Below, in pieces: positions 29,361 to 44,403 of a DNA stretch of 64,000 bases (position 1 is its first letter; each line of letters opens with the position of its first letter). A program made the translations under genes and the position numbers. Origin of the DNA: Streptomyces sp. NBC_01197 (GTDB lineage Bacteria; Actinomycetota; Actinomycetes; Streptomycetales; Streptomycetaceae). The stretch spans positions 6,774,001-6,838,000 of the forward strand of contig NZ_CP108569.1 in NCBI RefSeq assembly GCF_036010505.1, written 5' to 3'. The notes under the pieces are model-generated. The model saw only the letters and a program-made list of their open reading frames with translations. It did no database searches and was not told the DNA's origin.

Positions 29361-29978
29361 ATGTTGAACGTCGCCGTGGTCTATTACTCGTCAACCGGGA
29401 ACGTACACCGGCTCGCCGATGCGGCAGCCGTCTCCGCGGGGAAAACGGGCGCCGAGGTGCGCCTGCGCCGGGTGGCGGAAGTGTTTCCGCAGTCGCAGGT
29501 GGCCGGGAACGAGGCCTGGGCCGCACATCTGGACGCCAGCCGTGAGGTACCCCTGGCCGCCCTGGACGACCTGGAGTGGGCGGACGCGATCCTCTTCGGC
29601 ACGCCGACCCGGTTCGGCCTCCCCGCCGCGCAGTTGAAGCAGTTCCTCGACACCACCGTGGGGCTTTCACTCCAGGGCAAGCTGGTGAACAAGGTCGTCT
29701 CCTCGTTCACCTCGTCGGCAGCCGGGCACAGCGGGCAGGAGAGCACCATCCTGGCGCTGAACAACACCTACTACCACTGGGGCGCGATCATCGTGCCGAC
29801 CGGCGCCGTGGACCCGGTCCTCTCGGCACCGGGCAACGGCAACCCGTACGGGGTCAGCAGCGTCTCCGGTAACCGGCCCGGCAACGTCAGTGAGGAGAAC
29901 CTCGCGGCCATGGAGTTCCACGCCCGCCGGGTCGCCGGGATCGCATCCGCCCTCAAGCGGGGCTTCCAGGCCGGCTGA
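29361..29978 (+). CDS. WrbA-type NAD(P)H:quinone oxidoreductase
   Basis: 205-residue flavodoxin-fold protein of the WrbA (type IV) group. The FMN phosphate loop is YYSSTGNVHRLA at the N-terminus; GTPTRFGLPAAQLKQFLD forms the second FMN loop, and AAGHSGQES and YYHWGAIIVPTG complete the family pattern. It reduces quinones by two electrons at the expense of NAD(P)H, avoiding semiquinones. ATG 29361 has a GAGGGAGA ribosome site. It is the first gene of the + strand operon that makes a hydroxyanthranilate-type intermediate. Reduction or protection of an aminophenol-derived quinone is a reasonable but unproven role. Confidence 0.9.
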   Translation: MLNVAVVYYSSTGNVHRLADAAAVSAGKTGAEVRLRRVAEVFPQSQVAGNEAWAAHLDASREVPLAALDDLEWADAILFGTPTRFGLPAAQLKQFLDTTVGLSLQGKLVNKVVSSFTSSAAGHSGQESTILALNNTYYHWGAIIVPTGAVDPVLSAPGNGNPYGVSSVSGNRPGNVSEENLAAMEFHARRVAGIASALKRGFQAG

Positions 29979-30058
29979 CGTCTCCGCCGCCGTGCCGACC
30001 CCGTCAGCACGCGGCGCAGCCCGCGCCGGAAGGCACACCATCACAGGAGGTCCGACGC

Positions 30059-30829
30059 ATGGAGAGAAAGATCGCCCTGGTCACGGGCGCAGCCGGCGGA
30101 ATCGGCGAAGCCGTGGTCCGGGCACTGGGGGAGCGCGGCGTACGGATCGCCGCGGTCGACCGGGACGGCGAACGACTCAGCCGCACGGTGGACGGTCTCG
30201 TCGCCGAGGGGCACCACGTCGACGGCTTCGTCTGCGACGTCACGAACAGCCGGGCCGTCGAAACGACGGTCGAGAGGGCCGAGGCAGAGCTGGGGCCCGT
30301 GGACCATCTCGTCAACGCGGCCGGTGTGCTGCGCCTCGGGGCGGCCCGGAGCCTCACCGACGAGGACTGGGTATCGACGTTCGCGGTCAACACCACCGGT
30401 GTCTTCCACATGTGCCGCGCGGTCGCCAACCGGATGGTCCCCCGCTCGCGCGGCGGCATCGTCACCGTAGCGTCGAACGCGGCCGGCACCCCCCGTACGG
30501 ACATGGCCGCGTACGCCGCGTCGAAGGCGGCGGCGTCCATGTTCACCAAGAGCCTCGGCCTGGAACTGGCGCGGTACGGCATCCGCTGCAACGTGGTCGC
30601 GCCCGGCTCGACCGACACCCCGATGCTCACCTCGATGTGGCAGGACGAGAGCGGGCCCAAGGGCACCATCGAAGGCCGGCCCGAAGCCTTCCGCGTGGGC
30701 ATCCCGCTCGGCAGGCTGGCCCGTCCATCGAACATCGCCGACGCCGTCGTCTTCCTCCTCTCGGACCAGTCCTCGCACATCACCCTGCACGACCTGACGG
30801 TCGACGGGGGTGCCGCACTCGGTGTCTGA
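30059..30829 (+). CDS. SDR dehydrogenase, DhbA/EntA-like (predicted 2,3-dihydro-3-hydroxyanthranilate dehydrogenase)
   Basis: 256 residues of a classical short-chain dehydrogenase: NAD-binding [16 protein letters not shown] in strand 4, catalytic Ser in VASNAAG and Tyr-x-x-x-Lys in [12 protein letters not shown], then [10 protein letters not shown]. It resembles 2,3-dihydro-2,3-dihydroxybenzoate dehydrogenases. Next to PhzD- and PhzE-like enzymes the expected reaction is NAD-dependent aromatisation of trans-2,3-dihydro-3-hydroxyanthranilate to 3-hydroxyanthranilate, as established for calcimycin- and limazepine-type pathways. A strong AGGAGG ribosome site precedes ATG 30059. It is followed after 34 bases by the isochorismatase gene. 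Confidence 0.87.
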
Positions 30830-30863
30830 CCGCCCCACTGACCCCAACCAGCGGAGAAGGACC

Positions 30864-31487
30864 TTGCCCGGCATACCCCGAATCGATCCGTACCCGATGC
30901 CGACGTCTGCGGAGCTCCCCGCGAATGTCGCGGAGTGGACCGTTGACCCGGAGCGGGCCGTGCTGCTCGTCCACGACATGCAGCGCTACTTCCTGCAGCC
31001 ACTGCCCACTGCCCTGCGTGACGAACTCGTCTGCAACGCGGCGACGTTGCGTGACCGCTGTGCGGCGCTCGGCATCCCCGTGGCCTACACGGCCCAGCCC
31101 GGCGGGATGACGGGGGAACAGCGCGGTCTGCTCGCCGACTTCTGGGGCCCTGGCATGCGCACCGCCCCCGCCGACCGGGAGGTCGTCGGGCCGCTGGCCC
31201 CGGTCCCCGGCGACTGGGTGTTCACCAAGTGGCGCTACAGCGCCTTCTTCCGGTCCGACCTGCTCAAGCACATGCGCGGGGCCGGCCGGGACCAACTGAT
31301 CATCTGTGGTGTGTACGCACACGTCGGTGTGCTGATGACCGCTGTCGACGCTTTCACCAACGACATCCGGACGTTCCTGGTGGCGGACGCCGTCGCCGAC
31401 TTCTCCGCGGACCAGCACCGACAGGCCGTCGAGTACGCGGCGAGCCGCTGTGCGATGGCGGTCACGACCAAGGAAGTCCTGCTGTGA
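30864..31487 (+). CDS. phzD: PhzD-like isochorismatase (ADIC hydrolase)
   Basis: Predicted to hydrolyse 2-amino-2-deoxyisochorismate to trans-2,3-dihydro-3-hydroxyanthranilate and pyruvate. PhzD hallmarks: [20 protein letters not shown], the catalytic Asp in VHDMQRYF, Lys in [27 protein letters not shown], and [11 protein letters not shown] near the end. The TTG at 30864 (ribosome site GGAGAAGG) gives 207 residues, exactly the length of Pseudomonas PhzD. An ATG at 30810 would add an unusual 18-residue extension overlapping the preceding gene. The stop overlaps the GTG of phzE (GTGA), so the two are translationally coupled. Confidence 0.9.
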
Positions 31488-33421
31488 CCGGAACCCGAGA
31501 GCGCGCCCCCCTGCCCCCGGGCGGCCCCGATCTGCTCGGACAGGTGCTCGGCGACCGGCCGCCGCCGTTCGCACTGCTCCACCGTCCCGCGGCGACGGGC
31601 CGGGGCACGCTCGACGTCCTGCTCGGTGAGGTCTCGACGCCCGCCACGCTCGCGGAGATCCCGCTGCCGGAAGCCCCTGCCCGGCCGGGTGCTCCCCGGC
31701 ACGAGATGCTGGTCCTCGTCCCCTACCGTCAGATCGCCGAGCGCGGCTTCGTCTGCGCCGACGACGGCGCGCCGCTGATCGCCATGACCGTCGTCGGCCA
31801 GGCGACCACTACGGTCACCGATGCGCTGTCCCGGATTCCCGACACCGCCATCGAGCTGGCCGACGGGCACTTCGACATCGACGACGACACCTATGCCGAC
31901 ACCGTCCGCCGGGTGATAGCCGACGAGATAGGCCAGGGCGCGGGGGCCAACTTCGTCCTCAAGCGCACATTCGTGGCCGACATCACCGGTTATACGCCGC
32001 GCAGTGCGCTCACCCTCTTCCGCCGGCTGCTGCTGGGGGAGTCGGGCGCGTACTGGACGTTCATCGTCCACACCGGGACGCGTACGTTCGTCGGGGCCAC
32101 ACCGGAGTGTCACGTCAGCCTGCGCGACGGAACCGCCGTGATGAACCCCGTCAGCGGTACCTACCGCTACCCGCCGACGGGGCCCACCCTGCCCGGCGTG
32201 CTGGAGTTCCTCGCCGACCGCAAGGAGGCCGACGAGCTCTACATGGTCGTCGACGAGGAACTGAAGATGATGGCCCGCGTCTGTGAGCAGGGCGGCCGGG
32301 TGACGGGCCCCCGTCTCAAGGAGATGACGCGCCTCGCGCACACCGAGTACGTCATTGAGGGGCGCAGCACCAGGGATGCGCGCGAGATCCTGCGCGAGAC
32401 GATGTTCGCGCCCACGGTCACCGGCAGCCCGCTGGAGAACGCCTGCCGGGTCATCCACACGTACGAGCCGCAGGGACGCGGCTACTACAGCGGGGTGGTG
32501 GCGCTCATCGGGCAGGACGGGACCGGTGCCCGCGCCCTCGACTCCGCGATCCTCATCCGTACCGCCGACATCGGCGAGGGGGGACGGGTGAACATCAGCG
32601 TCGGCGCGACGCTCGTACGCCACTCCGACCCGGCTTCCGAAGTGGCGGAGACCCGCGCCAAAGCCGCAGGGCTGCTCGCGGCGCTGCAGGCCGACGCGCC
32701 GGCGACGCTGGCATCGCACCCCCAGGTGCGGGCGGCGCTGGAACGGCGCAACGCCACCATCGCCGGCTTCTGGCTCGCCGACGGCGAGGCGGACCGGCCC
32801 CGCGGCCCCGGCGAGGACGCAGCGAACGGCGCGCCGTCCGGCAGGGGCAGCAAGGTGCTCGTCGTCGACGCGGAGGACACCTTCACCGCGATGCTCGCCC
32901 ACCAACTCCGTTCGGTGGGGCTCTCCGTGACGGTGCGGCGTTTCGACGAGCCGTACAGCCTCGACGGCTGGGACCTGGTCATCATGGGGCCGGGCCCCGG
33001 TTCCCCGCACGACAGCGGCCATCCCAAGATCGCACACCTGCGGGCGGCGATACGGACCCTGCTCGCCGAGCGGCGGCCCTTCCTCGCCGTCTGTCTCAGC
33101 CATCAACTCCTCAGCCGTGAGACCGGCTTCGAGGTGGTCCGCCGGGCCACGCCCAACCAGGGCGTGCAGCGCGAGATCGATTTCTTCGGCCTGCGGGAGC
33201 GGGCCGGTTTCTACAACACCTTCGCCGCGGTCTCCTCCCACGACAAGGTCGACTGCGGTGCGGCCGGGATCGTGGAGGTGAGCCGCGACACCCGCACGGG
33301 CGAGGTGTACGGCCTGCGCGGCACCCACTTCGCCTCGATGCAGTTCCACCCCGAGTCCCTGCTCACCCAGGACGGCGTACGCATCCTGGAACGGCTCATG
33401 GCGGAGGTGCTGAACCCATGA
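31484..33421 (+). CDS. phzE: PhzE-like aminodeoxyisochorismate synthase (synthase plus glutaminase fusion)
   Basis: 645 residues. Residues about 1-430 are the chorismate-utilising anthranilate-synthase-I-like domain ([42 protein letters not shown]). Residues about 455-640 are a class I glutamine amidotransferase with Cys537 in [12 protein letters not shown] and His/Glu in MQFHPESLL. The oxyanion loop reads CLSHQ rather than CLGHQ. PhzE converts chorismate and glutamine to 2-amino-2-deoxyisochorismate without eliminating pyruvate, feeding PhzD. No PhzF, PhzA/B or PhzG gene is near, so phenazine is not the product. The GTG 31484 overlaps the phzD stop; its own stop overlaps the ATG of a 54-residue ORF. 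Confidence 0.92.
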
Positions 33422-33582
33422 CGTCCGTGGACGCGTTCACGCCCGGCCCGACTCCACGTGCCGTACCCGCCCGTATGACGGACTCCGCGCCGGTTCCTGG
33501 ACCCGGGCCCGCGCCGGCGGTGTCATCTGCCCCAGACCTCCACCCACCTGTGCAGCCGCAGTCGAAGCCGAGGACATCCTGA
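33418..33582 (+). CDS. Small Pro-rich ORF coupled to phzE and the ligase gene
   Basis: 54 codons, starting [16 protein letters not shown] and ending QPQSKPRTS, with about a quarter prolines. Its ATG overlaps the phzE stop (ATGA at 33418-33421) and its TGA overlaps the ATG of the ligase gene (TGATG at 33580-33584). It thus fills the gap between two enzymes with an unbroken translated frame. No family is recognised. It may be a real small protein, or simply a ribosome relay ensuring coupled translation of the TTA-containing ligase. No strong ribosome site of its own was seen. Confidence 0.5.
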   Translation: MTSVDAFTPGPTPRAVPARMTDSAPVPGPGPAPAVSSAPDLHPPVQPQSKPRTS

Positions 33583-35156
33583 TGTTACGGATACCTTCCA
33601 GCAACAACGGCCTCTATCTCGGATCGGTGCCCGAATCGGCCGCCGCGAAGAATGGCGGCACACTGATCACGCTCGACCACGACATGGTCACCCTCCCCGG
33701 CGTCGGCCGGACGCTGACCGTCGCCGAACTCGCCGAGCACGTCGACGACATGGCGGGCCGGCTGTGGGCCGCCGGGGTCCGGCCCAGTGAACACGTCGCC
33801 ATCCACCTGAGCCCCGGATTCGACATCTACGTGCTGGCGACGGCGGCTGCCCGTATCGGCGCCGTGCCGGTGATGCTGTCACCGGCTCTGAAGGGCGAGA
33901 GCGTCGCGGCGCTGCTCGAACGACTGGATCAGCCGCATCTGCTCACGGACGCGGCGAAGCTGGACGGGACACTGTCCGCCTTCCCGGTCGCCGATCTCGC
34001 CGACCGCGTCATCGTCGCCACCGGCTCCCGGCCGGACGCGGTGTCCCTGGACGGGCTGGCCGGGGCGCCGCGGCAGCGGCCCGTCATGCTCCACCCCGAC
34101 CAGCCCGCGCTGATGACGCACACCTCCGGCACCACAGGGCTGCCGAAGCTCGTCGTGCACTCCGCGCGCACCCTGCGCGGCCGGTTCCGCCCGCAGGAGC
34201 GGCTCGCCTCCTTCGTCCACCGGCGCGAGACCGTGGCCATCCATGTGTCGTACGTGCACTCGCGGATGTATCTGGCGCTCGCCGTACTACTGCCACGGGC
34301 CATGCCGCTGGTCATCATGAACGACTCGGACCCCGCCGGGGTCGCCGAACTCTTCGCCGAGACGCGTCCCGGGTTCATCGAAACCCATCCGAACTCCTTC
34401 ATGGAGTGGGAGGAACTCGTCGACCACCCGCGCAGACCGCTCGCCAACGTCCGTTATTTCAGCAGCACGTTCGACGCGATCCACCCGAGCACCATGGACC
34501 GGCTGCTGCGGGCGTCGGAGCGCCGCTCGCCGCTGTTCTTCCAGATCTACGGCCAGAGCGAGTGCGGTCCGCTGGTGGGCCGCGGCTACACCCGGAAGAA
34601 CGCGCACAAGGCCGACGGCCGGTGCCTGGGGTTCGCCATGCCCGGCGTGACGAACTTCCGGCTGGTGAGCCGCAACGGCGCCCGGCCGTCCCGGGAGACC
34701 CCCGGGTACATCGAGGTGAGCACCGGCGGCCGCGCCCTGACCTACTTCGGGGAGCGGGACCGCTTCGACCAGCAGGTGCACGGCAGTTGGTGGCGAGGCG
34801 GCGATGTCGGATACCGCTCCAGGTTCGGCTGCCTCCATCTGCTGGACCGCGAGGTCGACGTCATCCCGACCATCCACAGCACCCTTGAGGTCGAGGACAC
34901 CCTGCTCGGCCGGCTGGAGGAGCTGACCGAACTCGTCGTGGTGGCGGGCCCGCGCCAGGAGCCCGTCCCGGTCGTGTGCACCAGGGACGACCGGCCCCTG
35001 GAAGCCGAACGGTGGCGGTCGGCCGTGGCCGATCTCGCGCCGATGGCGGCCCCGGTCCAGATGCCGCTCACGGAGCTGCCCCGTACGGCCACCATGAAGA
35101 TCAAGCGCATCGAACTGTCCCAGTGGCTGCGGTCGCAGGAGGGCCCGGAATCGTGA
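33582..35156 (+). CDS. Class I adenylate-forming enzyme (acyl-CoA/aryl ligase), copy 1
   Basis: 524 residues of the ANL superfamily. Core motifs: A3 phosphate loop MTHTSGTTGLPKLVVHS, A5 IYGQSECGPL, A8-like WWRGGDVGYRSRFGCLHLLD, and the C-terminal catalytic lysine region TATMKIKRIEL. It activates a carboxylic acid as acyl-AMP and passes it to CoA, an amine or another acceptor. 3-Hydroxyanthranilate made by the upstream genes is the obvious candidate. It is about half identical to the 524-residue enzyme at 42192-43766. The second codon is TTA (33585-33587), a likely bldA control point. Its start overlaps the preceding small ORF, and its TGA overlaps the GTG of the monooxygenase. Confidence 0.9.
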   Translation: MLRIPSSNNGLYLGSVPESAAAKNGGTLITLDHDMVTLPGVGRTLTVAELAEHVDDMAGRLWAAGVRPSEHVAIHLSPGFDIYVLATAAARIGAVPVMLSPALKGESVAALLERLDQPHLLTDAAKLDGTLSAFPVADLADRVIVATGSRPDAVSLDGLAGAPRQRPVMLHPDQPALMTHTSGTTGLPKLVVHSARTLRGRFRPQERLASFVHRRETVAIHVSYVHSRMYLALAVLLPRAMPLVIMNDSDPAGVAELFAETRPGFIETHPNSFMEWEELVDHPRRPLANVRYFSSTFDAIHPSTMDRLLRASERRSPLFFQIYGQSECGPLVGRGYTRKNAHKADGRCLGFAMPGVTNFRLVSRNGARPSRETPGYIEVSTGGRALTYFGERDRFDQQVHGSWWRGGDVGYRSRFGCLHLLDREVDVIPTIHSTLEVEDTLLGRLEELTELVVVAGPRQEPVPVVCTRDDRPLEAERWRSAVADLAPMAAPVQMPLTELPRTATMKIKRIELSQWLRSQEGPES

Positions 35157-36751
35157 CACAGCAGATGACCGGGGCCGACGCCCGGCCCCCCTCGGCGGAC
35201 TTCGACGTGCTCGTGGTCGGTGCCGGACCGAGCGGGCTGACGGCGGCCTGCGAGCTGCTGCGGCGCGGGGTCCGGGTGCGCCTCATCGACCGGGCGCCGC
35301 AGCCCGTCCGGGCCCCGAAGGCCCTCTCGCTGTGGCCGCGGGCGCTCGACATCCTGGAGGACGTGGGGCTGTACGAGGAGATCCGGCGGAGTTCCACCCG
35401 GATCGACGCCTTCAGTTACTTCTCCGACCGCAGGCTGCTCGCCTCCTTCGGCTTCACCGAGGACCTGGCGTCCCGGATCCTCCCGCAGTACGAGACCGAA
35501 CAGGCGCTCACCGGACAGCTGGAGAGCCTCGGCGGCAAACCCGAACGCGGCGTGCGGCTCCTGGCCCTCGACGACGTCGACCACTCCGGGGATATCGGGG
35601 CCACCGGCGGTGTCACCGCCGTACTCGAGCATGCCGACGGGGGAGTGGAACGCGTCAGGGCGCCCTTCGTCATCGGCGCCGACGGAGCGGGCAGTTCGGT
35701 GCGCGGCCAGCTGGGCATCGGCTTCGAGGGCAGCACGTACGAAATGGCCTTCGCGCTGGTCGACACCCGTATCGAGGGCCACCTTCCGCCGGACGAGATC
35801 AGCTACTACCAGTCCCCGGCGGGGACGCTCGTGATCGTGCCGATGCCCGGCGGTGTCTTCCGCTTCCTGTCCGTCATGCCCGGCGGCCAGGAGGTGAGCG
35901 TGCCCATGATGCAGGCCGTACTCGACGAACGGGGGCCACGCGGCGTACGGATCACGGAACCGGTCTGGCAGACGGTCTTCCGGGTCCATGCCCGGCACGC
36001 CACCGACTTCCAGCGCGGACGCGTCTTCCTCATGGGCGACGCGGCGCATGTGCACAGCCCGGCGGGCGGCCAGGGCATGAACAACGGGCTCCAGGACGCC
36101 AACAACCTGGGCTGGAAACTGGCTTCGGTGATCCATGGTCAAGCGCCGGGCTCGCTGCTGCGGAGCTACGGGCCGGAACGCTCCGAAGCGACCCGCCGCA
36201 TCGTCCGTGACACCGATCTGCAGACCCGGGCCTGGATGGTCGACAGCCAGCTGCGCATCCGGGCCCGCGACGCCGCCTTCCGGCTGCTCGACAGGTCCGG
36301 CGCGGTGTCCCGGCTCTACGCACCCGTGATGGCGGGCCGGCGCCTGGCCTATACGCCGGCCCGCGACACCCAGTACCCGGCCCGCCGGTCCGGCTGCCCG
36401 CCGCGGACCCGCCTTCCCGGCGGTCTGAAGGTCGGCGCGGTCTTCCCCCGGGAGCGGGCGGTGCCCCTCGGTATCTCGGGCCCGGACGTGGACCCCTCGG
36501 CCTGGGCGCTCGCCGTCCTCGCGCCCCGGGAGGCTTCCGCCTGGCTGACCGAGGTCGGGAACCTGGCCGCCCGGTGGCCGCTGGTGCGCGTCGTGCGGAC
36601 GGCCCGCGCCGATGTCGCGACGCACGGCGGCTGCGGCCGGCCGGGCTACTACCTCGTCCGTCCGGACGGGCATATCGCGGCGCACGGCCACGAGCGGGAC
36701 CTGAACCGGCTGGAGGCCGAACTGGGGTCCGCGCTGCTGCCGCGAACCTGA
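35153..36751 (+). CDS. FAD-dependent aromatic monooxygenase (PF01494), 532 residues
   Basis: Group A flavoprotein hydroxylase. VLVVGAGPSGLTAACELLRR binds the ADP of FAD, VIGADGAGSSVRGQLGI is the DG motif for FAD/NADPH, and FLMGDAAHVHSPAGGQGMN is the GD motif. A C-terminal thioredoxin-like extension (about 420-530) places it with PgaE/RdmE/phenol-hydroxylase-type enzymes. It hydroxylates an electron-rich aromatic ring using NAD(P)H and O2, plausibly an anthranilate-derived intermediate. The GTG 35153 overlaps the ligase stop by four bases. It is the last gene of the + strand operon and mirrors the ligase-monooxygenase order of the minus-strand operon. Confidence 0.9.
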   Translation: MTQQMTGADARPPSADFDVLVVGAGPSGLTAACELLRRGVRVRLIDRAPQPVRAPKALSLWPRALDILEDVGLYEEIRRSSTRIDAFSYFSDRRLLASFGFTEDLASRILPQYETEQALTGQLESLGGKPERGVRLLALDDVDHSGDIGATGGVTAVLEHADGGVERVRAPFVIGADGAGSSVRGQLGIGFEGSTYEMAFALVDTRIEGHLPPDEISYYQSPAGTLVIVPMPGGVFRFLSVMPGGQEVSVPMMQAVLDERGPRGVRITEPVWQTVFRVHARHATDFQRGRVFLMGDAAHVHSPAGGQGMNNGLQDANNLGWKLASVIHGQAPGSLLRSYGPERSEATRRIVRDTDLQTRAWMVDSQLRIRARDAAFRLLDRSGAVSRLYAPVMAGRRLAYTPARDTQYPARRSGCPPRTRLPGGLKVGAVFPRERAVPLGISGPDVDPSAWALAVLAPREASAWLTEVGNLAARWPLVRVVRTARADVATHGGCGRPGYYLVRPDGHIAAHGHERDLNRLEAELGSALLPRT

Positions 36752-36800: not shown

Positions 36801-36821
36801 GACATTTAATATCCAGGATAT
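36801..36821. promoter_or_regulatory. Rrf2-gene operator overlapping its promoter (site 1)
   Basis: GACATTT (36801-36807) is followed after two bases by a perfect 13-base palindrome ATATCCAGGATAT (36809-36821). A -10 TAATAT (36807-36812), with TTGCGT 18 bases upstream (36783-36788), lies inside it. The start codon ATG at 36820 is at its right end, so the transcript may be leaderless and blocked by the bound regulator. The same sequence pattern recurs at 37355. Confidence 0.65.
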
Positions 36822-37305
36822 GAGGATGCATGAGGGCGTCGAATGGGCGCTGCACAGTTGCCTCAACCTGGCGTGGGCGGGGGACGAGCGGGCGATCACC
36901 GCCGCCCGGCTCGCGGCGTACCACGATCTGCCCGCCGCGTACCTCAACAAGCAGCTTCAGGCGCTGGCCCGGGCGGGCATCGTGTCGTCCGCTCCGGGCC
37001 CGCGGGGCGGGTTCCGGCTGGCCCGCAGACCCGAGGACGTCACCCTGATGGATGTGGTGGCGGCGATCGAAGGACCGGAGCAGGCCTTCCGCTGTACCGA
37101 GATCCGGCAGCAGGGGCCGGGCGCGGGGATGCCGGACAACTACGGCGAACCGTGCACCGTCTCGCGGGCCATGCGCAGCGCCGAGCTCGCCTGGCGCCAG
37201 GAGCTCGCGGGCCAGACCCTCGCGGACGTCAAGGCCACGGCCGAGCGCACCGCTCCCGGTGTACCCGCCCGCGTGCGCCGCTGGTTCGCCGACTCGCGCA
37301 CCTGA
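36820..37305 (+). CDS. Rrf2-family transcriptional regulator
   Basis: 161 residues. The N-terminal winged helix reads EWALHSCLNLAWAGDERAI, then YLNKQLQALARAGIVSSAPG and GPRGGFRLARRPEDVTLMDV, the Rrf2 signature. The Fe-S-binding C-x5-C-x7-C cluster of IscR/NsrR is absent; only two cysteines (FRCTE and GEPCTV), about 20 residues apart, lie in the effector region, so a thiol switch or small-molecule sensing is more likely. A palindromic operator covers its -10 and start codon, and a second copy lies before the downstream MFS gene, implying autoregulation plus control of the exporter. A second in-frame ATG lies at 36826. It lies between the two converging biosynthetic operons. Confidence 0.88.
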   Translation: MRMHEGVEWALHSCLNLAWAGDERAITAARLAAYHDLPAAYLNKQLQALARAGIVSSAPGPRGGFRLARRPEDVTLMDVVAAIEGPEQAFRCTEIRQQGPGAGMPDNYGEPCTVSRAMRSAELAWRQELAGQTLADVKATAERTAPGVPARVRRWFADSRT

Positions 37306-37373: not shown

Positions 37374-37389
37374 CCCAAGGGGTTCAACC

Positions 37390-37488
37390 ATGAGTGCTCA
37401 GCCTGAACTCATCTGTGTCCGCGAGGTGTTGCCCCGGTGGACGGCAGATCCGCGACCACTGCGGCAGGGGATCGGGGGCACTCCGTGA
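37390..37488 (+). CDS. 32-residue leader ORF of the exporter gene
   Basis: ATG 37390 is preceded at ideal distance by AAGGGG. The frame (MSAQPELICVREVLPRW and 15 more residues) stops at 37486-37488, overlapping the GTG of the MFS gene (GTGA). It is the first ribosome site after the site 2 operator, so ribosomes should enter here and reach the exporter by coupling. A regulatory leader or translational relay is suggested. No similarity recognised. Confidence 0.45.
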   Translation: MSAQPELICVREVLPRWTADPRPLRQGIGGTP

Positions 37489-38681
37489 CGGACCTCGAAT
37501 CTCCGGTGTCCACCACCGGACCGGACAGGTCGCCGCTGAAGGGGTGGCTCGCGGTCTCCGCCGTCACCCTGGGAATCTTCGCCCTGATGACGTCGGAACT
37601 GCTGCCGGTGGGTCTGCTCACGCCGGTCGGATCCGAGCTGAACGTGTCCGAGGGTACGGCCGGACTGATGGTGACGGTGCCCGGCCTGGTGGCCGCGGTA
37701 TCGGCGCCGCTGATCACCGTCGCCGCCGGCCGGCTGGACCGCCGGTGGGTGCTGGCCGTACTGGTCGGCCTGGTCGGCGTGGCCAACCTGGCCGGTGCCT
37801 TCGCCCCGGACTTCGCCACCCTGCTCATCGCCCGTCTCTTCATCGGCGTGAGCGTCGGCGGCTTCTGGGCGATCGCGGGCGGCCTCGCCCTGCGACTGGT
37901 GCCGGAGAAGCATGTCCCCCGGGCCATGTCGATCATCTTCGGCGGTGTGTCGACCGCATCCGTTCTCGGGGTGCCCACCGGCACCCTGCTCGGCGACATG
38001 AGCGGCTGGCGCACCGCCTTCGCCTCGGTCGGGGCCCTCGGCCTGGCGGCGCTGGTCTGCCTGGTCCTCATGGTCCCGCCGCTGCCGGCCACCCGGACGA
38101 TCACCATGGCCGAACTGCCCGCGCTGCTCCGGGCCAACGCGGCGATCCGTATCGGCGTACTGGCCACCTTCCTGCTCATCACCGGCCACTTCATCGCGTA
38201 CACGTTCGTCCGCCCGGTCCTCCAGGACATCTCCGGTTTCGACGGCGACATGACCAGTTCGCTGCTGCTCATCTACGGAGTGGCGGGCATCCTCGGCAAT
38301 TTCGTGGCCGGCTCCCGGGCCGCAACGAACGTCCGGCGGACCCTGTTCGTCATCGCCGTCGTGCTGACGGCCGCCATGGTGCTCATCCCCGTCCTCGGCA
38401 CCGGACACATCGGAGGGCTCATCCTCCTGGTGGTCTGGGGCCTCGGGTACGGAGGAGTCTCGGTGAGCCTGCAGACCTGGATGCTCAAGGCCGCCCCGGA
38501 GGCGGGCGAGGCCGCCTCGTCCCTCTTCGTCATGATGTTCAACCTGTCGATCGCCCTCGGCGCACTGATCGGCGGCCGCGTCGTGGACGGCTCAACGGCC
38601 GGTGTGCTGTGGCTCGGAGGCGCCCTCGTCCTCCTGACCGCGGTGGCCGTCGGCTCGTCCAGGAAGGCGCAACTCGCCTGA
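37485..38681 (+). CDS. MFS efflux transporter (DHA1/AraJ-like)
   Basis: 398 residues with twelve helices. Signature parts: MTSELLPVGLLTPVGSELNV in helix 1 and its loop, ITVAAGRLDRRWVLAVL (motif A), and GVSVGGFWAIAGGLALRLVP with the helix 4-5 RxxxG-type residues, as in AraJ/YdhP/NepI-like exporters. Proton-driven export of the locus product or self-resistance is likely given its place between the two biosynthetic arms. The GTG at 37485 overlaps the stop of the leader ORF and follows a GGGGG stretch. Control by the adjacent Rrf2 protein is inferred from the shared operator. Two hairpins follow the stop. Confidence 0.9.
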   Translation: MTDLESPVSTTGPDRSPLKGWLAVSAVTLGIFALMTSELLPVGLLTPVGSELNVSEGTAGLMVTVPGLVAAVSAPLITVAAGRLDRRWVLAVLVGLVGVANLAGAFAPDFATLLIARLFIGVSVGGFWAIAGGLALRLVPEKHVPRAMSIIFGGVSTASVLGVPTGTLLGDMSGWRTAFASVGALGLAALVCLVLMVPPLPATRTITMAELPALLRANAAIRIGVLATFLLITGHFIAYTFVRPVLQDISGFDGDMTSSLLLIYGVAGILGNFVAGSRAATNVRRTLFVIAVVLTAAMVLIPVLGTGHIGGLILLVVWGLGYGGVSVSLQTWMLKAAPEAGEAASSLFVMMFNLSIALGALIGGRVVDGSTAGVLWLGGALVLLTAVAVGSSRKAQLA

Positions 38682-38687
38682 GAGCGT

Positions 38688-38723: not shown

Positions 38724-38742
38724 CCGCACCCCTCCATGAACC

Positions 38743-38778: not shown

Positions 38779-38825
38779 CCGTACTCCAAGGTGCTCGCGT
38801 GCGGCTCCCGGGGGTGGTGGCCCGG

Positions 38826-40826
38826 CTATACGACCACTCCCACGAGGTCGGTGTCGGTGGTGAACGGGCGTACCGCGGCCGGGACATGAGCCACCGGTGG
38901 CAGGGCGAGCACGGCGCGGGCGATCTCGTCGGAGTCGCCCAGGGTCACCGAGTCCACTCCGGGCCGGATTCCGGCCGCGGTCACCCAGTGCACGGACTCG
39001 GTGGGGACCCCGTAGGCGAACCGGCGCGGGTGGGCGTGGCCCTGTGGGCCGAGGACGTGGTAGGGCCGCGGGGTCACGGCGAGCCCCCCGGTCTCGTAAC
39101 CGCCCTCCTGGCCGCCAGGGATGCGGTAGGCGGTGCACTGGCCGGTGTTCAGCAGATGGCGAAGCAGCGGATCGGCGGTGCGGCGCAGATCGGGCTCCGG
39201 CAGCCTGGCCTCGATCAGTACCTGTGCCCGTACCGGAGGGCCGGGCACGAGAGTGGAGTCGGCGACGAAGGCCGGGTTGCCCGGGTCGATGCGAATACGG
39301 GTGCCCGGGCCGGTGAGCTCCAGGACGCCCGCTTCGATGAGCGCGCCCATCTCCTCGATACGGGAGGCAGGCGGGCCGATGGAGAGGTAGGCGTTCAGCG
39401 GCGTGTACCAGCCTTCGAGGTCGTCCCGGTGCGAGTCGCCGTGCAGGCCCCCGTGGTCGACCGCGAGCCGGACTTCGTTCCGAAGGTCCCGCAGGACGTC
39501 AAGCCCGGCCTTGAGCGGACCGCTGACGTTGCCGGCCCTCGCCTGCCGCACGTCCTGGGCCAGATAGTCCAGCAGCCAGGACCGGAACTCTTCGCGATCG
39601 GTGAAGACCCGGTCCCCGTAGGGCTTGGTGAGCCGTTCCCAGCTCCAGCGGTCGGCGGACCCGATACGCCATACATCCAGCAGCGCCGCCGGGTCCTGTC
39701 CCAGCGGGAGGGCAAGGTACTGCCCGGTGAAGGGCTCGCGGTCCGCGCCCCGCCCCCGGGCCTCCAGCAGGGTGCTGTAGTACACGCTCTCGACTTCCCG
39801 GGAGATGACCGGCCACAGCTCCGCGGCGAAGCGGACCCCGCCGCCCTCCGCCGGCCTGCTGCGGAGTCCGTCGATCAGTGCCGGGGTCAGGAGCCGCGGG
39901 GAGTACCGTCCGAACGCGCCCTTCTCGTTCTCCCCGCGGGCCTGATACGGAACGCCGCGACGCGAACTCGCGTACAGCAGCGGTTCCTGACCCGAAGGCC
40001 GGTAGACCAGGCGTCCGCCCTCCCGGCCGAACGTCCCGCCGCGCCCGACGGTGAAGAGCGCCATGTGGTCGAAGAAGTTGAGGCCCAGACCTCGCAGCAG
40101 CACCGGGCGGCCCGGCTGGATCCCGCTGAGGTCGAGGTCCGCCGGGTTGGCGGGGGTGATGTACGTGAGGTGGTGGATACGGGCGAGACTCGCCGTCCGC
40201 TCCTCCTGCGGGGTGAGGCGGGCCGAGACATGGCCGAGTGCGAGGACGATCGCGTCCAGGTGGTCGAGTCTCGTACCGTCTTCGAGCCGGACGCCCTGCG
40301 GGCCGCCGGGTACGCCGTGTGTGTCGGCCATGGCGACCGCACGCGACCGGTGCACCCGTACCGTCACATGGGCCGGCGCGTGGGCGGCCATGTGATGGAA
40401 CCGGTCGGCCAGATAACTGCCGTAGAAGGCACGGGTCGGATATGTGTCAGGCCCCAGCCCCCGTGCCTCGGTGAGGGTCGCCGCGTCGATGACGCCCGGC
40501 CCCTCCCCGCCACCCTCGCCGGCCGGGGCCCCGACCAGCTCCTGGGCCCAGTCGTAAAGACTCGGGCCCGGCTCGACCGGCCCCTCGATCTGTGAACTTT
40601 CGTCCGTGTAGACGGTTATCTGGGAGGCCACCGTGTTCATCAGCAGGTGGCGGGACTGCTCGGTGCGCCATACGGCGCCGGCGCCCGGAGCGGCCGGGTC
40701 GACGACGTGCACGGTCACCGACGGGTGCGAGGGGGAGTGCCGCTCGTTGGCACACAGCCGCTCCAGCACGGACAGTCCGCGGGGGCCGGCGCCGACGACA
40801 CACACTTCGATACGGCTGCTGCTCAT
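38826..40826 (-). CDS. FAD/NAD(P)-binding protein (PF13454 type)
   Basis: 666 residues. The N-terminus reads EVCVVGAGPRGLSVLERLCA, followed by AVWRTEQSRHLLMNTVASQI, the signature of the PF13454 FAD-NAD(P)-binding family, then ALGHVSARLTPQEE. The remainder is a large alpha/beta region with no other named domain. The family is distantly related to the N-hydroxylating monooxygenases (SidA/PvdA group), but no enzymatic function is established for most members. ATG 40826 follows a GGAG ribosome site; earlier in-frame sequence belongs to the neighbouring gene. It is last in the four-gene minus-strand operon. N-oxidation of the amino group or another redox tailoring step is possible but speculative. 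Confidence 0.85.
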   Translation of the reverse strand: MSSSRIEVCVVGAGPRGLSVLERLCANERHSPSHPSVTVHVVDPAAPGAGAVWRTEQSRHLLMNTVASQITVYTDESSQIEGPVEPGPSLYDWAQELVGAPAGEGGGEGPGVIDAATLTEARGLGPDTYPTRAFYGSYLADRFHHMAAHAPAHVTVRVHRSRAVAMADTHGVPGGPQGVRLEDGTRLDHLDAIVLALGHVSARLTPQEERTASLARIHHLTYITPANPADLDLSGIQPGRPVLLRGLGLNFFDHMALFTVGRGGTFGREGGRLVYRPSGQEPLLYASSRRGVPYQARGENEKGAFGRYSPRLLTPALIDGLRSRPAEGGGVRFAAELWPVISREVESVYYSTLLEARGRGADREPFTGQYLALPLGQDPAALLDVWRIGSADRWSWERLTKPYGDRVFTDREEFRSWLLDYLAQDVRQARAGNVSGPLKAGLDVLRDLRNEVRLAVDHGGLHGDSHRDDLEGWYTPLNAYLSIGPPASRIEEMGALIEAGVLELTGPGTRIRIDPGNPAFVADSTLVPGPPVRAQVLIEARLPEPDLRRTADPLLRHLLNTGQCTAYRIPGGQEGGYETGGLAVTPRPYHVLGPQGHAHPRRFAYGVPTESVHWVTAAGIRPGVDSVTLGDSDEIARAVLALPPVAHVPAAVRPFTTDTDLVGVVV

Positions 40827-40884
40827 AACGGACACTCCGCTCTCGGTCGGCTGATGACGATCAGTGGGGTGGATCGCTGGGTGG

Positions 40885-42171
40885 TCATGCTTCCGCCCAG
40901 CGGGGGGCTGGTACGGCCGGGTCCTGGCCGGGGGCGGGGCACGCACCCGGTCCGGGGACGGGGCACGCATCATGGCCGGGCGCGGGTAGCGCATCTGCCG
41001 AATCGAAGGACCGGGCACCGTGCATCCAGCCCACCTGGTCGTGCAGTTCGGTCGCCGACAGGGCGGAGAGCAGCGCGTTCCTCGCACGGGCCGCCTGCCC
41101 GGCCGGATGCCACAACTGGGTGCTGCGGCGGGCGAGAAGCTGGATCTGCGCCGTCCGGTCGCGCCGTTCGGCGTTGTACTTCTCGAACCGTGCGGGAAAC
41201 TCATCGGCGGGGACACCGAGCATCCCACCGAGCAGCACGGCGTCCTCCAGCGCCTGGCAGGCACCCTGGGCCGCGTAGTGCAGCATCGGATGTGCGGCGT
41301 CCCCCAGCAGGGCCACCCGTCCGTCCGTCCAGTCACGCACCGGTTCGCGGTCCACGAGCACCCAGGACCTCCAGTCCTCGCCCAACTCCAGGAGCCGGTG
41401 CGGAACTTCACCCAGGGCCGTGAACTCACGGCGGACACGCCCCCGCGTGACAGGCACACCGGCGAACGCCACCGTCGCTCCGTCGTCACGGCTGGCGGCG
41501 AGATTGAGGTACTTCCCGCCGGCGATCGGATAGTGCACGAAGTGACAGCCGGGGCCGGCCCACCAGGTCACGGTGGCGGAGCGGAGCTCCTCGGGCACCC
41601 GGGTCATCTCGATGACGGCCCGGTAGACGGTGAGTCCGGAGACGACCGGCGGTCCGTCGCCGACGAGTTGGCCGCGTACCGCCGAGTGGATGCCGTCGGC
41701 GCCGATCAGTCCGTCCGCGCGGATCCGCCGCCCGTCGTCGAGGACGGCCGTCGCGCTCACCCCGTCCTGTTCGTAGCCGGTGACGCCGCTGCCGCTGCGC
41801 AGTTCGACCCCACTGTGACGGCGGCACGCGTCCAGCAGCAGGCCGTGCAGTTCGGCCCGGTGCACGACGACGTACGGATTGCCGAAGCGGCGCCGGTACT
41901 CACCGGTGAGCGGCATACTCGCCACGTGCTCACCGGTGACGCCGTCCATGAACCGCAGTGCTTCCATCCGTACGGCGGTCTCCCGGACGGCGTCCCCCAG
42001 ACCGAGGCGGTCGAGGGCGTGCAGGCCGTTCGGCGCCAGCTGGATACCGGCGCCGATCTCGGCGAACCGGTCGGCCCGTTCGAGGACCAGGACCTGATGT
42101 CCCCGCCCGGCGACGGCGAGTGCGGCGGCCAGGCCGCCGATGCCGCCGCCGACGACCACTGTCTTCGTCAT
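40885..42171 (-). CDS. FAD-dependent monooxygenase, salicylate/3-hydroxybenzoate hydroxylase-like
   Basis: 428 residues of a single-domain group A flavoprotein. VVVGGGIGGLAAALAVAGRG binds FAD, GLIGADGIHSAVRGQL is the DG motif, and LLGDAAHPMLHYAAQGACQA the GD motif, including the P-x-x-x-Q-G typical of salicylate 1-hydroxylase and 3-hydroxybenzoate 6-hydroxylase. It adds a hydroxyl para or ortho to an existing phenol, sometimes with decarboxylation. The ATG 42171 has a GGAGGGAG ribosome site seven bases upstream. It follows the second ligase gene by 20 bases, mirroring the ligase-monooxygenase order of the + strand arm, but belongs to a shorter subfamily than that enzyme. The C-terminal tail is Pro/Ala-rich. 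Confidence 0.9.
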   Translation of the reverse strand: MTKTVVVGGGIGGLAAALAVAGRGHQVLVLERADRFAEIGAGIQLAPNGLHALDRLGLGDAVRETAVRMEALRFMDGVTGEHVASMPLTGEYRRRFGNPYVVVHRAELHGLLLDACRRHSGVELRSGSGVTGYEQDGVSATAVLDDGRRIRADGLIGADGIHSAVRGQLVGDGPPVVSGLTVYRAVIEMTRVPEELRSATVTWWAGPGCHFVHYPIAGGKYLNLAASRDDGATVAFAGVPVTRGRVRREFTALGEVPHRLLELGEDWRSWVLVDREPVRDWTDGRVALLGDAAHPMLHYAAQGACQALEDAVLLGGMLGVPADEFPARFEKYNAERRDRTAQIQLLARRSTQLWHPAGQAARARNALLSALSATELHDQVGWMHGARSFDSADALPAPGHDACPVPGPGACPAPGQDPAVPAPRWAEA

Positions 42172-42191
42172 CCTGCTCCCTCCGTGCTCTG

Positions 42192-43766
42192 TCACGGGTG
42201 CCGGCCCTCCGCTGAGAGGAGCCGCGCGAGCTCAAGCCTTTTGATCTTGGTGGTGGCCGTCTGCGGCAGATCGCCCAGACGCTGGTGCACGGGCGCGGCC
42301 ATCGGCGGCAGGTCCGCCACCGCGGCGTCCCACGCGGCCGCGTCCAGCGGACTGTCGTCCTTGGTGCAGACGACGGGCACCGCGGTGCCGTCCGCGCCGC
42401 GTACGATGACGACCTCGTTCAGCTCGGCCAGCCTGCCGAGCAGGGTGTCCTCGGCCGCCAGCGTGCTGCCGAACCCCTCGATCAGATCCACCTCCCGGTC
42501 GAGGAGGTGGACGCACCCCCACCTCGTGCGGTATCCGACGTCGCCCATCCGCCACCAGCCGCCGTCGGAGACCTGCTGCTCATAGCGGTCGTGCTCGCCC
42601 AGGTAGGTCACGATGCGGCCGTGGCTGCGCACCTCGATGTAACCCGGGTTGGACTCCGACGGCGGCCTGCCGTCACGGCTGACGACACGGGCCTCCGTCA
42701 TACCGGGGAACGGCATTCCGACGCAGCGCCCGTCCGCCTCCGGGTGCCGCCGCCGGGTGAACGCGCGCACCACGGCCGGGCCCACCTCGCTCTGCCCGTA
42801 GAGCTGGCCGAAGACCGGGGCCGTACGCCGTGTCGCCTGCAGTAGTCGGCGCACGGTCCTGGGGTGGATGGCGTCGAAGGTGCTGCTGAAGAGTTTGACG
42901 TTCGCCAGCGGCTCCCGCGGGTCGTCGGCCAACTCCTCCCACTCCATGAAGGAGTTGGGGTGGGCCTCCAGGACGCCGGGGCGGACACGGGCGAAGAGGT
43001 CGCCCGCCCGCCGCACGTCGGAATCGGCGAGCACGACGATCGGGAACCCGCGCATCAGCGAGATCGCGAGCGCGGTGAAGAGCCGGGAGTGCACGAACGT
43101 CACATGCAGGGCGATGGTCTCGCGCCTGATCAGGATGGGCGCGACGGCCAGCAACTGGGGCCGGTACCGGGCCTGCAGGCTGTGGCCCGTATGGACGGCG
43201 AGTTTCGGGGTACCGGTGGTCCCCGAGGTGTGGGTGATGAGTGCCGGGCGCTCAGGTGGCAGGGTCACCGGGGCGACGCGGCCGGCTCCCGCCAGCGAGG
43301 CCAGGGAGACGGCCCGGTCATGGTCTCCGGTGGTGAGCAGTACCCGTTCCGCGAGCTCGAAGACCGTGTCCGGCAGCTCTTTCCCGAGCTTGTCCGGGTC
43401 GGTCACCAGGAAGGGTCTGCCCACCCGCCGGACCAGTTCCGCGACCGTCGTGCCGTCCAGCGCCGGGGACAGGAGTACGGGTACGGCGCCGATGCGCGCC
43501 ACCGCACAGGCGAGGAGGATGATGTCGAACCCGTCGGCCTTGTGGACGACCACCTTCTGGCCGGGTCGCACCCGCGCGGCCCACAGCCGGGAGGCGAAGT
43601 CATCGACGATGTCCGCCACCTCGGAGACGGTCATCCGCAGACCTGCCGAGGGGGCGATGCCGAGTTCGTGGTCGAGAATCAGAACATTCGCCGGATGGCG
43701 GGCCGCCGCCCGCTCGAAAAGCGTCCCCAGCCGGAATCCGCGATTTCCTCTGCGTTGTAGAAGCAT
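42192..43766 (-). CDS. Class I adenylate-forming enzyme, copy 2
   Basis: 524 residues, the same length as the enzyme at 33582-35156 and about half identical by eye across the whole chain, with shared blocks such as HPNSFMEWEEL, SSTFDAIHP and HLLDREVD. Motifs: ITHTSGTTGTPKLAVHTG (phosphate loop), LYGQSEVGPA, WWRMGDVGYRTRWGCVHLLD and TATTKIKRLEL with the catalytic lysine. It activates a carboxylic acid as the adenylate. The ATG 43766 matches the start of copy 1; a longer reading to 43877 would overlap the upstream gene. There is no TTA codon at its start, unlike copy 1. A second acid substrate or a coupling step is a reasonable guess. Confidence 0.9.
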   Translation of the reverse strand: MLLQRRGNRGFRLGTLFERAAARHPANVLILDHELGIAPSAGLRMTVSEVADIVDDFASRLWAARVRPGQKVVVHKADGFDIILLACAVARIGAVPVLLSPALDGTTVAELVRRVGRPFLVTDPDKLGKELPDTVFELAERVLLTTGDHDRAVSLASLAGAGRVAPVTLPPERPALITHTSGTTGTPKLAVHTGHSLQARYRPQLLAVAPILIRRETIALHVTFVHSRLFTALAISLMRGFPIVVLADSDVRRAGDLFARVRPGVLEAHPNSFMEWEELADDPREPLANVKLFSSTFDAIHPRTVRRLLQATRRTAPVFGQLYGQSEVGPAVVRAFTRRRHPEADGRCVGMPFPGMTEARVVSRDGRPPSESNPGYIEVRSHGRIVTYLGEHDRYEQQVSDGGWWRMGDVGYRTRWGCVHLLDREVDLIEGFGSTLAAEDTLLGRLAELNEVVIVRGADGTAVPVVCTKDDSPLDAAAWDAAVADLPPMAAPVHQRLGDLPQTATTKIKRLELARLLSAEGRHP

Positions 43767-43860
43767 TCCGCCAAGCTCTCGTCGGTGGACATAGGAATGC
43801 GGCCGTCGCGCGCTGCTCACTGCTTCGGCCGGAAAGTTCAGGAGGCTGGTGCGGTGCCGC

Positions 43861-44403
43861 TCAGCCCCCGTCGACAACGGCTTTGATGCGGTCGAGTGTG
43901 GCCGCCAGATCGCCCTTCACCTTGACACTCCATTCGGTGAAGAACCGCCGCTTCTCCTGCTCGTCCATATCCGCCACAATGCCGCGGATTCCTTCGGTCG
44001 CCTGGTCCATACGGAAATGGTGGGTGAGGGTGCAACCACCCTCCGCAGGCTCGATGTCAAAACCCCAGACGCTCTGTTGCCGGTTCCCCGCGGTGTCGCG
44101 CATGGCCCAGCGGAACGTCAGACCGGGGTCGGCGGCGACGACTTCCGACTGGGTGATCCACTTTCCCCGTACGACCGGCGCCCAGGAAACGACACTCTCG
44201 TCGCGCAGGTTCTCCCCGCGGAAAACGGCCCCGACCGTGGCCGGTTCACCGGAGATCCATTCGCCGCCCAGACATTCGGGGCTCCATTCGCCACTGCGCG
44301 GGAGATCGCTGATGATCGCGTAAACACCGTCCGGTGCTGTGGAAAGGTGGATGCTGGCACCGAGTTCGAACAGCGGCGATTCACTACTGGTGTTTCGGTC
44401 CAT
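43861..44403 (-). CDS. SRPBCC family protein (polyketide cyclase/START-like)
   Basis: 180 residues of a helix-grip fold: SIHLSTAPDGVYAIISDLPR at the start, GEWSPECLGGEWISG, then WGFDIEPAEGGCTLTHHFRM, and a long C-terminal helix (KVKGDLAATLDRIKAVVDG). The family binds hydrophobic ligands and includes aromatase/cyclases and lipid carriers; a substrate-binding or cyclisation role in the locus is likely but undefined. It is the first gene of the minus-strand operon, 94 bases before the ligase start. ATG 44403 was taken; the ribosome site is weak. Confidence 0.83.
   Translation of the reverse strand: MDRNTSSESPLFELGASIHLSTAPDGVYAIISDLPRSGEWSPECLGGEWISGEPATVGAVFRGENLRDESVVSWAPVVRGKWITQSEVVAADPGLTFRWAMRDTAGNRQQSVWGFDIEPAEGGCTLTHHFRMDQATEGIRGIVADMDEQEKRRFFTEWSVKVKGDLAATLDRIKAVVDGG

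Follow-up and report, generated by a model that had tools for sequence, protein, structure and literature searches.

Gene content of the locus

The genes described here lie within a 64,000-nucleotide stretch of the Streptomyces sp. NBC_01197 genome (the window). We scanned 40 of its ORFs, shadow frames included, against Pfam; this is a subset of the ORFs in the window. The Pfam and NCBIfam assignments agree with the families proposed in an earlier sequence-only reading, namely contiguous PhzE-like, PhzD-like and DhbA-like SDR genes (the last by TIGR04316), two AMP-binding ligases, two aromatic FAD monooxygenases (FAD_binding_3), an SRPBCC protein, an MFS exporter and two quinone reductases, one WrbA-type and one zinc-type. 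The features are as follows.

26998..29034, minus strand: PucR-type regulator (GAF, GGDEF-like and PucR HTH domains; Pfam)
29361..29978, plus strand: WrbA-type NAD(P)H:quinone oxidoreductase (NCBIfam NF002999, 155 bits, cut-off 141)
30059..30829, plus strand: DhbA-like SDR, the expected DHHA to 3-hydroxyanthranilate (3-HAA) dehydrogenase (TIGR04316, 359 bits, cut-off 300)
30810..31487, plus strand: PhzD-like isochorismatase, expected to convert ADIC to DHHA (PF00857, 131 bits)
31484..33421, plus strand: PhzE-like ADIC synthase (Chorismate_bind and GATase, Pfam; start read from the frame)
33582..35156, plus strand: LigA, ANL superfamily, candidate CreM-type diazotase (PF00501; 56-57% identity with LigB)
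35153..36751, plus strand: FMO1, FAD aromatic hydroxylase (Pfam FAD_binding_3; weak Rng_hyd_C end below cut-off)
36820..37305, plus strand: Rrf2-family regulator (TIGR00738, 92 bits, cut-off 73)
37437..38681, plus strand: MFS exporter (PF07690)
38781..38819, no strand: 39-nt stretch replacing a creD segment (BLASTN against loci L016 and L006)
38826..40826, minus strand: CreE, L-aspartate N-hydroxylase/nitrosuccinate synthase homologue, 666 aa (PDB 8cp2, 661 bits)
40885..42195, minus strand: FMO2, FAD hydroxylase resembling 3-hydroxybenzoate 6-monooxygenase (NF006021, 435 bits, just under the cut-off of 459)
42192..43766, minus strand: LigB, ANL superfamily, candidate diazotase, counterpart of Pzm18 (Pfam AMP-binding; synteny)
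43861..44403, minus strand: SRPBCC protein (Polyketide_cyc2), counterpart of Pzm19, both 180 aa (Pfam; synteny)
44494..44934, minus strand: GNAT acetyltransferase (Pfam), adjoining the SRPBCC and LigB genes in several relatives
45104..46108, plus strand: zinc-type quinone reductase (Pfam; PIG3-like at 170 bits, below the cut-off of 297)

The PucR-type regulator gene occupies the same position in the two nearest relatives, L006 and L016, and probably marks the cluster edge. Many relatives likewise have a zinc-type quinone reductase gene close to the module, as does the penzonemycin cluster (pzm13). The Rrf2 gene had not been listed in the sequence-only reading, nor had the absence of a gene between those for the MFS exporter and CreE.

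The PhzE-PhzD-SDR set is a 3-HAA cassette of the penzonemycin type, and 3-HAA made from chorismate is the likely starting point of the cluster. That the locus is carrier-free, as first proposed, is supported: among the 40 window ORFs scanned with Pfam there were no PKS, NRPS, carrier or thioesterase families, no PhzF, PhzA/B or PhzG of phenazine pathways, no acetolactate synthase (the enzyme for the penzonemycin coupling partner) and no benzoxazole-type cyclising amidohydrolase. Benzoxazole clusters of the nataxazole and caboxamycin type also combine 3-HAA with an adenylating ligase, but there this amidohydrolase makes the ring. Readings of the cluster as a phenazine or a dibenzoxazepinone (mycemycin) locus were weighed and placed lower.

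The refuting case in which phzE would nowhere be conserved together with the ligases did not arise. In a set of 31 ligase loci, 10 carry a ligase of the LigA type; SDR-PhzD-PhzE lies upstream of LigA in 7 of these 10 and FMO1 follows LigA in all 10, which argues that the gene set is not a chance assembly.

CreE and the deletion of creD

The gene at 38826..40826 was previously described as an FAD/NAD(P) protein. The gene is real and carries an NAD_binding_9 domain, but its identity had been missed: it matches PDB 8cp2 (E 4e-197), a Streptomyces sp. V2 protein solved as L-aspartate N-hydroxylase. By homology, the product is a close relative of the L-aspartate N-hydroxylase/nitrosuccinate synthase CreE, and it aligns with its L016 orthologue over nearly the whole length. 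Of 392 Streptomyces genomes, 201 have a CreE homologue at E <= 1e-150; in a search of 11 genomes, 4 gave no match.

In L016 and L006 the nitrosuccinate lyase gene creD lies between the MFS and creE genes, and the L016 protein matches the PDB CreD 5xny with 601 bits. CreD is absent from the window locus, where the ~1.5-kb creD segment of L016 is reduced to 39 nt, or 48 nt when aligned with L006. Among 61 genomes, the junction is unbroken only in the strain's own; the match in genome G037 consists of two pieces 1.5 kb apart. The gene was lost from this locus by deletion. Of the 30 loci with the best CreE matches in the 392 genomes of the genus, 29 are not the strain's own, and 27 of these have CreD within the 1.5-kb flank of CreE. 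In a second, paralogous cluster the genome retains, beside a paralogous CreE, a creD gene at C1:2538411 whose product shares 75% identity with the L016 protein; a further CreD match (59%) lies at another locus. With creD missing from the window, function in this strain therefore depends on another copy.

The ligases and their linkage with nitrite-forming genes

Neither sequence nor fold singles out diazotases. Against solved structures, LigB scored 95 bits with 9xb8 ("fatty-acid-CoA ligase FadD"), 84 with 4-chlorobenzoate-CoA ligase, 78 with Tri17 and 69 with CmaA6; the corresponding values for LigA were 82, 67, 57 and 54 bits. Of six PDB codes sought in papers, the Tri17 codes 8TF7 and 9BQ0 turned up in PMC11705231 and the other four in no paper searched; 8ztz is CmaA6 by its entry title. 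The top rows of the LigB fold comparison (model pLDDT 74) were CoA ligases and aryl-adenylating enzymes; the fold does not set diazotases apart from CoA ligases and was dropped as support for a diazotase. So was the NCBIfam AvaA6 model, which gave 70 bits for LigA and 90 for LigB, far under its cut-off of 975.

CreE accompanies the ligase in 19 of the 31 loci, and CreD lies at the edge of 3 more; neither was found in the remaining 9, two of which are short contigs. The S. halstedii locus L026 reads SRPBCC-LigB (76%)-second ligase (63%)-MFS-Rrf2-QOR-CreE-CreD, which is the order of pzm19 to pzm11 with pzm16 left out of the comparison, and its proteins of 180, 527 and 161 aa have the lengths of pzm19, 18 and 14. 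LigB and the SRPBCC protein of the window are 76% and 60% identical to their counterparts in this pzm-like locus. Within the LigA clade, L143 (59% to LigA) carries CreE (63%) and CreD (70%) inside a type III PKS/aminotransferase cluster; in L141 CreE was not found within 29.5 kb. Two loci, L008 and L034, seemed to have 3,4-AHBA synthases downstream of LigA-FMO1, which was ruled out by the Pfam assignment of KAS III and enoyl-CoA hydratase in L034; L008 carries the same pair (90% and 84%).

According to passages of the penzonemycin paper (PMC9323291), Pzm18 is 48% identical to CreM; LigB is tied to CreM by this value and through its L026 counterpart. A review classes Pzm18 as a putative diazotase. 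Given the CreE homologue next door, LigA and LigB are best read as candidate CreM-type, nitrite-dependent diazotases. The ligase-assembled aminophenol or aminoquinone product first proposed is not the best reading, since this ligase subfamily accompanies CreE/CreD and nitrate reductase genes and LigB corresponds to Pzm18.

Many relatives have a second nitrate reductase and a NarK-type transporter next to LigA/LigB-type ligases, sometimes without creE, which points to an alternative source of nitrite; L009 of Longimycelium tulufanense has such a reductase and no creE. The NasC-like type of this reductase occurs in 27 of the 392 genomes; in 15 of these a LigA/LigB-family gene is no more than 20 kb away, against a rough expectation of ~1.4% each. 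This linkage is support independent of homology to diazotases. Among the papers listed from the open-licence PMC literature, we found no diazotase cluster with an attached dedicated nitrate reductase. Part of PMC12154649 mentions both nitrate reductase and diazo terms, so nitrate-derived nitrite in N-N biosynthesis is already in print as a general idea.

Proposed pathway and its alternatives

We consider it probable that the locus is a carrier-free diazotisation cluster, served by a CreD from elsewhere in the genome, that turns the ortho-aminophenol 3-HAA or a hydroxylated form of it into a diazo compound. Gene content, homology, co-conservation and the loss of creD from the locus are observed; the reactions, their order, the supply of CreD in trans and the product are what we infer from the genes. 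Counting against this reading are the matches of the ligases to CoA ligases, the ligase loci and genomes in which CreE was not found, and the lack of creD in the window. PhzE, PhzD and the DhbA-like SDR would convert chorismate to 3-HAA, while CreE would oxidise L-aspartate to nitrosuccinate, from which a CreD lyase encoded at another locus would free nitrous acid. In a step that consumes ATP and nitrite, LigB, and probably LigA too, would then turn the aromatic amine of 3-HAA, or of 3-HAA hydroxylated by FMO1/FMO2, into an ortho-diazo (diazonium/quinone-diazide) compound. This could be exported, or it could couple further and give a hydrazone or azo product, with the two quinone reductases dealing with quinone states.

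The locus belongs, as a variant, to a pathway type already published, although the sequence-only reading could name none. The penzonemycin cluster (Streptomyces sp. SCSIO 40020, GenBank ON345781), as far as it is described in excerpts of PMC9323291, shares PhzE, PhzD, SDR, CreE, quinone reductase, Rrf2, MFS, two ANL ligases and SRPBCC, together with a proposed 3-HAA start and CreM-type diazotisation. It is thus a related cluster with a named product, but the two loci are not alike in gene order or in accessory genes: it has CreD, DAHP synthase, acetolactate synthase, an F420 oxidoreductase and an N-acetyltransferase, whereas the window has FMO1, FMO2 and WrbA, no local CreD and a distinct MFS exporter (30% to that of L026). 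With acetolactate synthase not found and two hydroxylases added, the product should differ from penzonemycin. Other systems also come close in part, judging from portions of the papers cited. Cremeomycin biosynthesis also uses aspartate-derived nitrite and an ANL diazotase on an ortho-aminophenol carboxylate (PMC11705231, PMC11429834), but starts from 3,4-AHBA made by CreH/CreI and not from chorismate-derived 3-HAA; creD is missing from the window locus. The CreM homologue Aha11 of tasikamide biosynthesis performs ATP-dependent diazotisation of a hydroxyanthranilate derivative, an alkyl 5-hydroxyanthranilate ester and not the free acid, and its product couples to an NRPS peptide (PMC11705231). 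The ava and cma pathways share CreE/CreD and an ANL diazotase, but use carriers and a type II PKS and remove the diazo group (PMC10777205).

The last of these is the precedent for a possible cryptic diazotisation here, the diazo group being made and then lost by deamination, for example to 3-hydroxybenzoate that FMO2 would convert to gentisate. The best FMO2 model, 3-hydroxybenzoate 6-monooxygenase, fits, but the score is under the family cut-off, L017, L025 and L031 have LigB and CreE without FMO2, and beyond the DhbA-like SDR no epimerase- or SDR-type gene was recognised for the role of AvaA7, which the two quinone reductases might still play. We regard this as improbable. Equally doubtful is a reading of LigA and LigB as conventional aryl-CoA/aryl-adenylate or amide ligases joining 3-HAA units or another acid into a benzoxazole-, dibenzoxazepinone- or amide-type product, with CreE as a passenger. 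Their ANL fold, the FadD and 4-chlorobenzoate-CoA ligase matches and the anthranilate-CoA ligase AuaEII among the LigB fold rows would suit it, as would a ~50% identical clade (L129-L132) near a TrpE-type synthase without CreE; moreover, the pzm strain yielded two dibenzoxazepinones, mycemycin A and demethylmycemycin A, and PMC9323291 shows a 3-HAA unit in the second of them. The repeated linkage of the subfamily with CreE/CreD and nitrate reductase speaks against it, and the ORFs scanned gave no sign of a second gene for making an acid, of a carrier or of an amidohydrolase. Slightly less unlikely is a decaying cluster, in which the creD deletion leaves no nitrous acid and the nitrosuccinate from CreE breaks down to 3-nitropropionate, a decarboxylation that the aspartate N-hydroxylase paper describes as spontaneous. 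The 39 nt in place of creD agree with this, but the remaining genes keep open frames and the genome retains the CreD copies described above.

Beyond the probable diazotisation cluster, we tentatively suggest, at somewhat less than even chances, that 3-HAA diazotisation clusters of Actinobacteria swap their nitrite source: aspartate through CreE/CreD, both sources, or only a dedicated second NasC-like nitrate reductase, accompanied by a NarK-type transporter and by NirB-half flavoproteins that have no nitrite-reducing part. The window strain has lost the local lyase, and its nitrite for this cluster may come via the lyase of the paralogous cluster 4 Mb away, one pool serving two clusters. New here are the creD deletion with creD kept in a paralogous cluster and the nitrate reductase and NarK genes beside the ligases of relatives.

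Having no PKS or NRPS genes, such clusters can be overlooked by standard miners; part of PMC11429834 places the creD/creE homologues of its strains outside predicted clusters, one strain excepted. As a natural experiment, the family lends itself to testing where biosynthetic nitrite originates, and the window strain, with its natural loss of creD, to testing whether pathways share nitrite.

Gene layout and the missing lyase

The window (C1:6774001-6838000) is part of a 7.7-Mb genome and has a G+C content of 70-77% across most of its length; judged from the loci found with LigA, its nearest named relatives are Streptomyces. The cluster consists of two gene groups facing each other between 29.4 and 46.1 kb. 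LigA and LigB denote its two ANL-superfamily ligases, candidate diazotases, and FMO1 and FMO2 its FAD aromatic monooxygenases.

Gene groups of the cluster
Plus strand: WrbA, DhbA-like SDR, PhzD, PhzE, LigA, FMO1, Rrf2, MFS
Minus strand: SRPBCC, LigB, FMO2, NAD_binding_9 protein (38826-40826)

A DDE_5 transposase-like gene (25791-27044) adjoins the cluster, a position common to both nearest relatives. Positions 1-8000 have a GC fraction of 0.63-0.64, compared with 0.68-0.77 from 10 kb on, and a weaker third-position bias; this stretch was perhaps acquired. A tRNA called by ARAGORN at 56192-56284, with a four-base anticodon (actc), is probably spurious.

The sequence-only reading, which had predicted a carrier-free locus starting from 3-hydroxyanthranilate (3-HAA), listed the parts correctly but left one, the NAD_binding_9 protein, without a name. 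This protein is a homologue of CreE. It matches 8cp2/8cp5, the single PDB sequence retrieved at E <= 1, with an E value of 4e-197 (661 bits), and that entry is described as the L-aspartate N-hydroxylase of Streptomyces sp. V2, which produces nitrosuccinate. In the aspartate-nitrosuccinate (ANS) route to nitrous acid, this predicted reaction corresponds to the step of CreE. The finding is real and richer in information than that reading supposed, but the cluster is a variant of a known pathway type.

The usual partner of CreE is the lyase CreD. In the two nearest relatives, Streptomyces sp. NBC_01306 (L016, LigA 94% identical) and SID10853 (L006, 91%), a gene of 475 or 482 aa lies between MFS and creE, and the L016 product matches PDB CreD 5xny with 601 bits. 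Both flanks of the creD site align between the window and L016 at 93% each, while the window has 39 nt in place of the ~1.5-kb creD segment. When the junction was searched in 61 genomes, an unbroken match was found in the own genome only; the next best, in G037, was in two pieces 1.5 kb apart. The 30 best CreE loci of the 392 genus genomes include 29 that are not our own, and in 27 of these CreD lies within a 1.5-kb flank of CreE. The two exceptions are L073 and L074, and in the L074 genome CreD is ~1.5 kb further away (L135). Natural deletion of the lyase gene is the new point at this cluster.

Matches to the L016 CreD are present elsewhere in the same genome, at C1:2538411 (75%), C1:475622 (59%) and C1:4587041 (40%), along with two weaker ones. 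The first lies within a second cluster, SRPBCC-LigB(71%)-FMO2(68%)-CreE(68%)-CreD, with a facing group PhzE-PhzD-SDR-DAHP synthase. Since this cluster keeps CreD, the lost lyase activity may possibly be supplied in trans. The second cluster (C1:2523000-2556000; L050, L051) also has an HpaB-type hydroxylase and a Rieske oxygenase nearby. The CreD-like lyase at C1:475622-476944 (L052, 59%) is near an FAD_binding_3 monooxygenase, and the 20 kb fetched around it contain no match to CreE. A further PhzE-like gene (53% identical) is found at C1:5814095-5814871 (L005).

Nitrate reductase genes in related loci

Of the 31 loci that a search of genome contigs with LigA recovered, 11 carry a molybdopterin nitrate reductase next to the ligase module, together with a transporter and either one or two flavoproteins resembling NirB. 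Nitrate transporter-like, NasC-like and NirB-half genes were seen beside modules in L012-L015, L018, L021-L023, L027, L030, L033, L138 and L139. The L012 reductase resembles NasC, with 748 bits where the equivalog cut-off is 1100, and the L138 transporter is NarK/NarU-like, also below cut-off. In each of the three flavoproteins tested the match to NirB is confined to its front part, and no nitrite/sulfite reductase domain was found in the two given to Pfam. Two such reductases, the one beside the module and another that is 62-68% identical to the query, occur in 7 of 14 genomes searched.

The NasC-like type is held by 27 of 392 genus genomes at E <= 1e-280. A LigA/LigB-family gene lies within 20 kb of the reductase in 15 of them, compared with a rough chance expectation of 1.4% per genome, the related genomes not being independent. 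CreE is also near in 10 of the 15 and, among the matches listed, which leave weaker copies in G253 and G023 unplaced, is not near in the other five (G253, G369, G023, G083, G229). G369 and G083 are outside the 201 CreE-positive genomes, and in G023 (L139) LigB directly adjoins the transporter with no CreE between. Neither a ligase-family gene nor CreE is near the reductase in 11 of the 27, and G302 has CreE only. The attached reductase is the new point in the relatives, and it points to a possible second nitrite source.

CreE was searched for in the genomes that contain the 10 LigA-type loci and in that of L013; four of these 11 gave no match (L008, L009, L011, L013). In L013, a metagenome bin that may be incomplete, LigB, the transporter, NasC and two NirB-half genes are consecutive. 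Provided that contig C1 corresponds to the record from which the L009 locus was fetched, a NasC copy of that genome begins 128 bases after the locus ends. The L008 and L011 genomes have only a more distant reductase type (61-63%), which counts against a simple swap of nitrite source in all cases. Passages of a 2025 preprint (PMC12154649) state that KinJ clusters are mostly without CreDE, nitrite necessarily coming from elsewhere, and that for alanosine it may come from non-dedicated nitrate reductases. No dedicated nitrate reductase attached to a diazotase cluster was found among the papers listed in searches of open-licence literature.

Diazotase or CoA ligase

LigA and LigB, which are 56-57% identical to each other, both have as best PDB match 9xb8, named fatty-acid-CoA ligase FadD, which outranks 4-chlorobenzoate-CoA ligase, Tri17 and CmaA6. 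Scores for sequence and fold are not enough by themselves to separate a diazotase from a CoA ligase, and the best evidence on function is the neighboring genes. CreE is present in 19 of the 31 loci found with LigA and CreD is at the locus edge in three more; nine have neither, two of these (L007, L020) being contigs of less than 9 kb. The S. halstedii locus L026, whose gene order and three protein lengths match the published penzonemycin cluster from pzm19 to pzm11 (pzm16 aside), encodes a protein with 76% identity to LigB. In the penzonemycin cluster Pzm18, reported to be 48% identical to CreM, is proposed to diazotize a 3-HAA-derived amine (PMC9323291). Passages of a later review call Pzm18 putative, and list or describe CreM, AvaA6, CmaA6, Aha11 and Tri17 as confirmed diazotases.

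L143 and the similar L141, whose enzymes fall in the LigA clade of the tree, are both clusters with type III PKS, aminotransferase and prenyltransferase genes. The first, on a plasmid, also carries CreE (63%) and CreD (70%); the second adjoins a phenazine cluster and gave no match to CreE in the 29.5 kb fetched. Members of a more distant LigA-like clade (L129-L132, ~50% identity) have an FAD monooxygenase, a GntR/aminotransferase-type regulator and a TrpE-type synthase in fused form nearby. The 18-kb stretches fetched there contain no CreE, so nitrite dependence is not assignable to the whole superfamily. L142, on a Streptomyces sp. CFMR 7 plasmid (NZ_CP011523.1), has a minimal gene set in which a single LigB-like gene (60%) precedes MFS and Rrf2 (59%); neither CreE nor PhzE has a match in the 29.6 kb fetched.

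Proposed pathway

Chorismate would be converted to 3-HAA by PhzE, PhzD and the SDR, a route with precedents in limazepine and calcimycin, as cited in PMC9323291. LigB, perhaps together with LigA, would then diazotize 3-HAA or a hydroxylated form of it. In ortho-aminophenols such as 3-HAA the diazonium is stabilized as a quinone diazide, and the two quinone reductases would fit intermediates of quinone type. FMO2 scores 435 bits against the 3-hydroxybenzoate 6-monooxygenase model (cut-off 459), and FMO1 accompanies LigA in all 10 LigA-type loci among the 31. For penzonemycin, PMC9323291 proposes that acetolactate synthase supplies the coupling partner. No gene for this enzyme was found among the 40 window ORFs given to Pfam, so the product of the window cluster should differ from penzonemycin.
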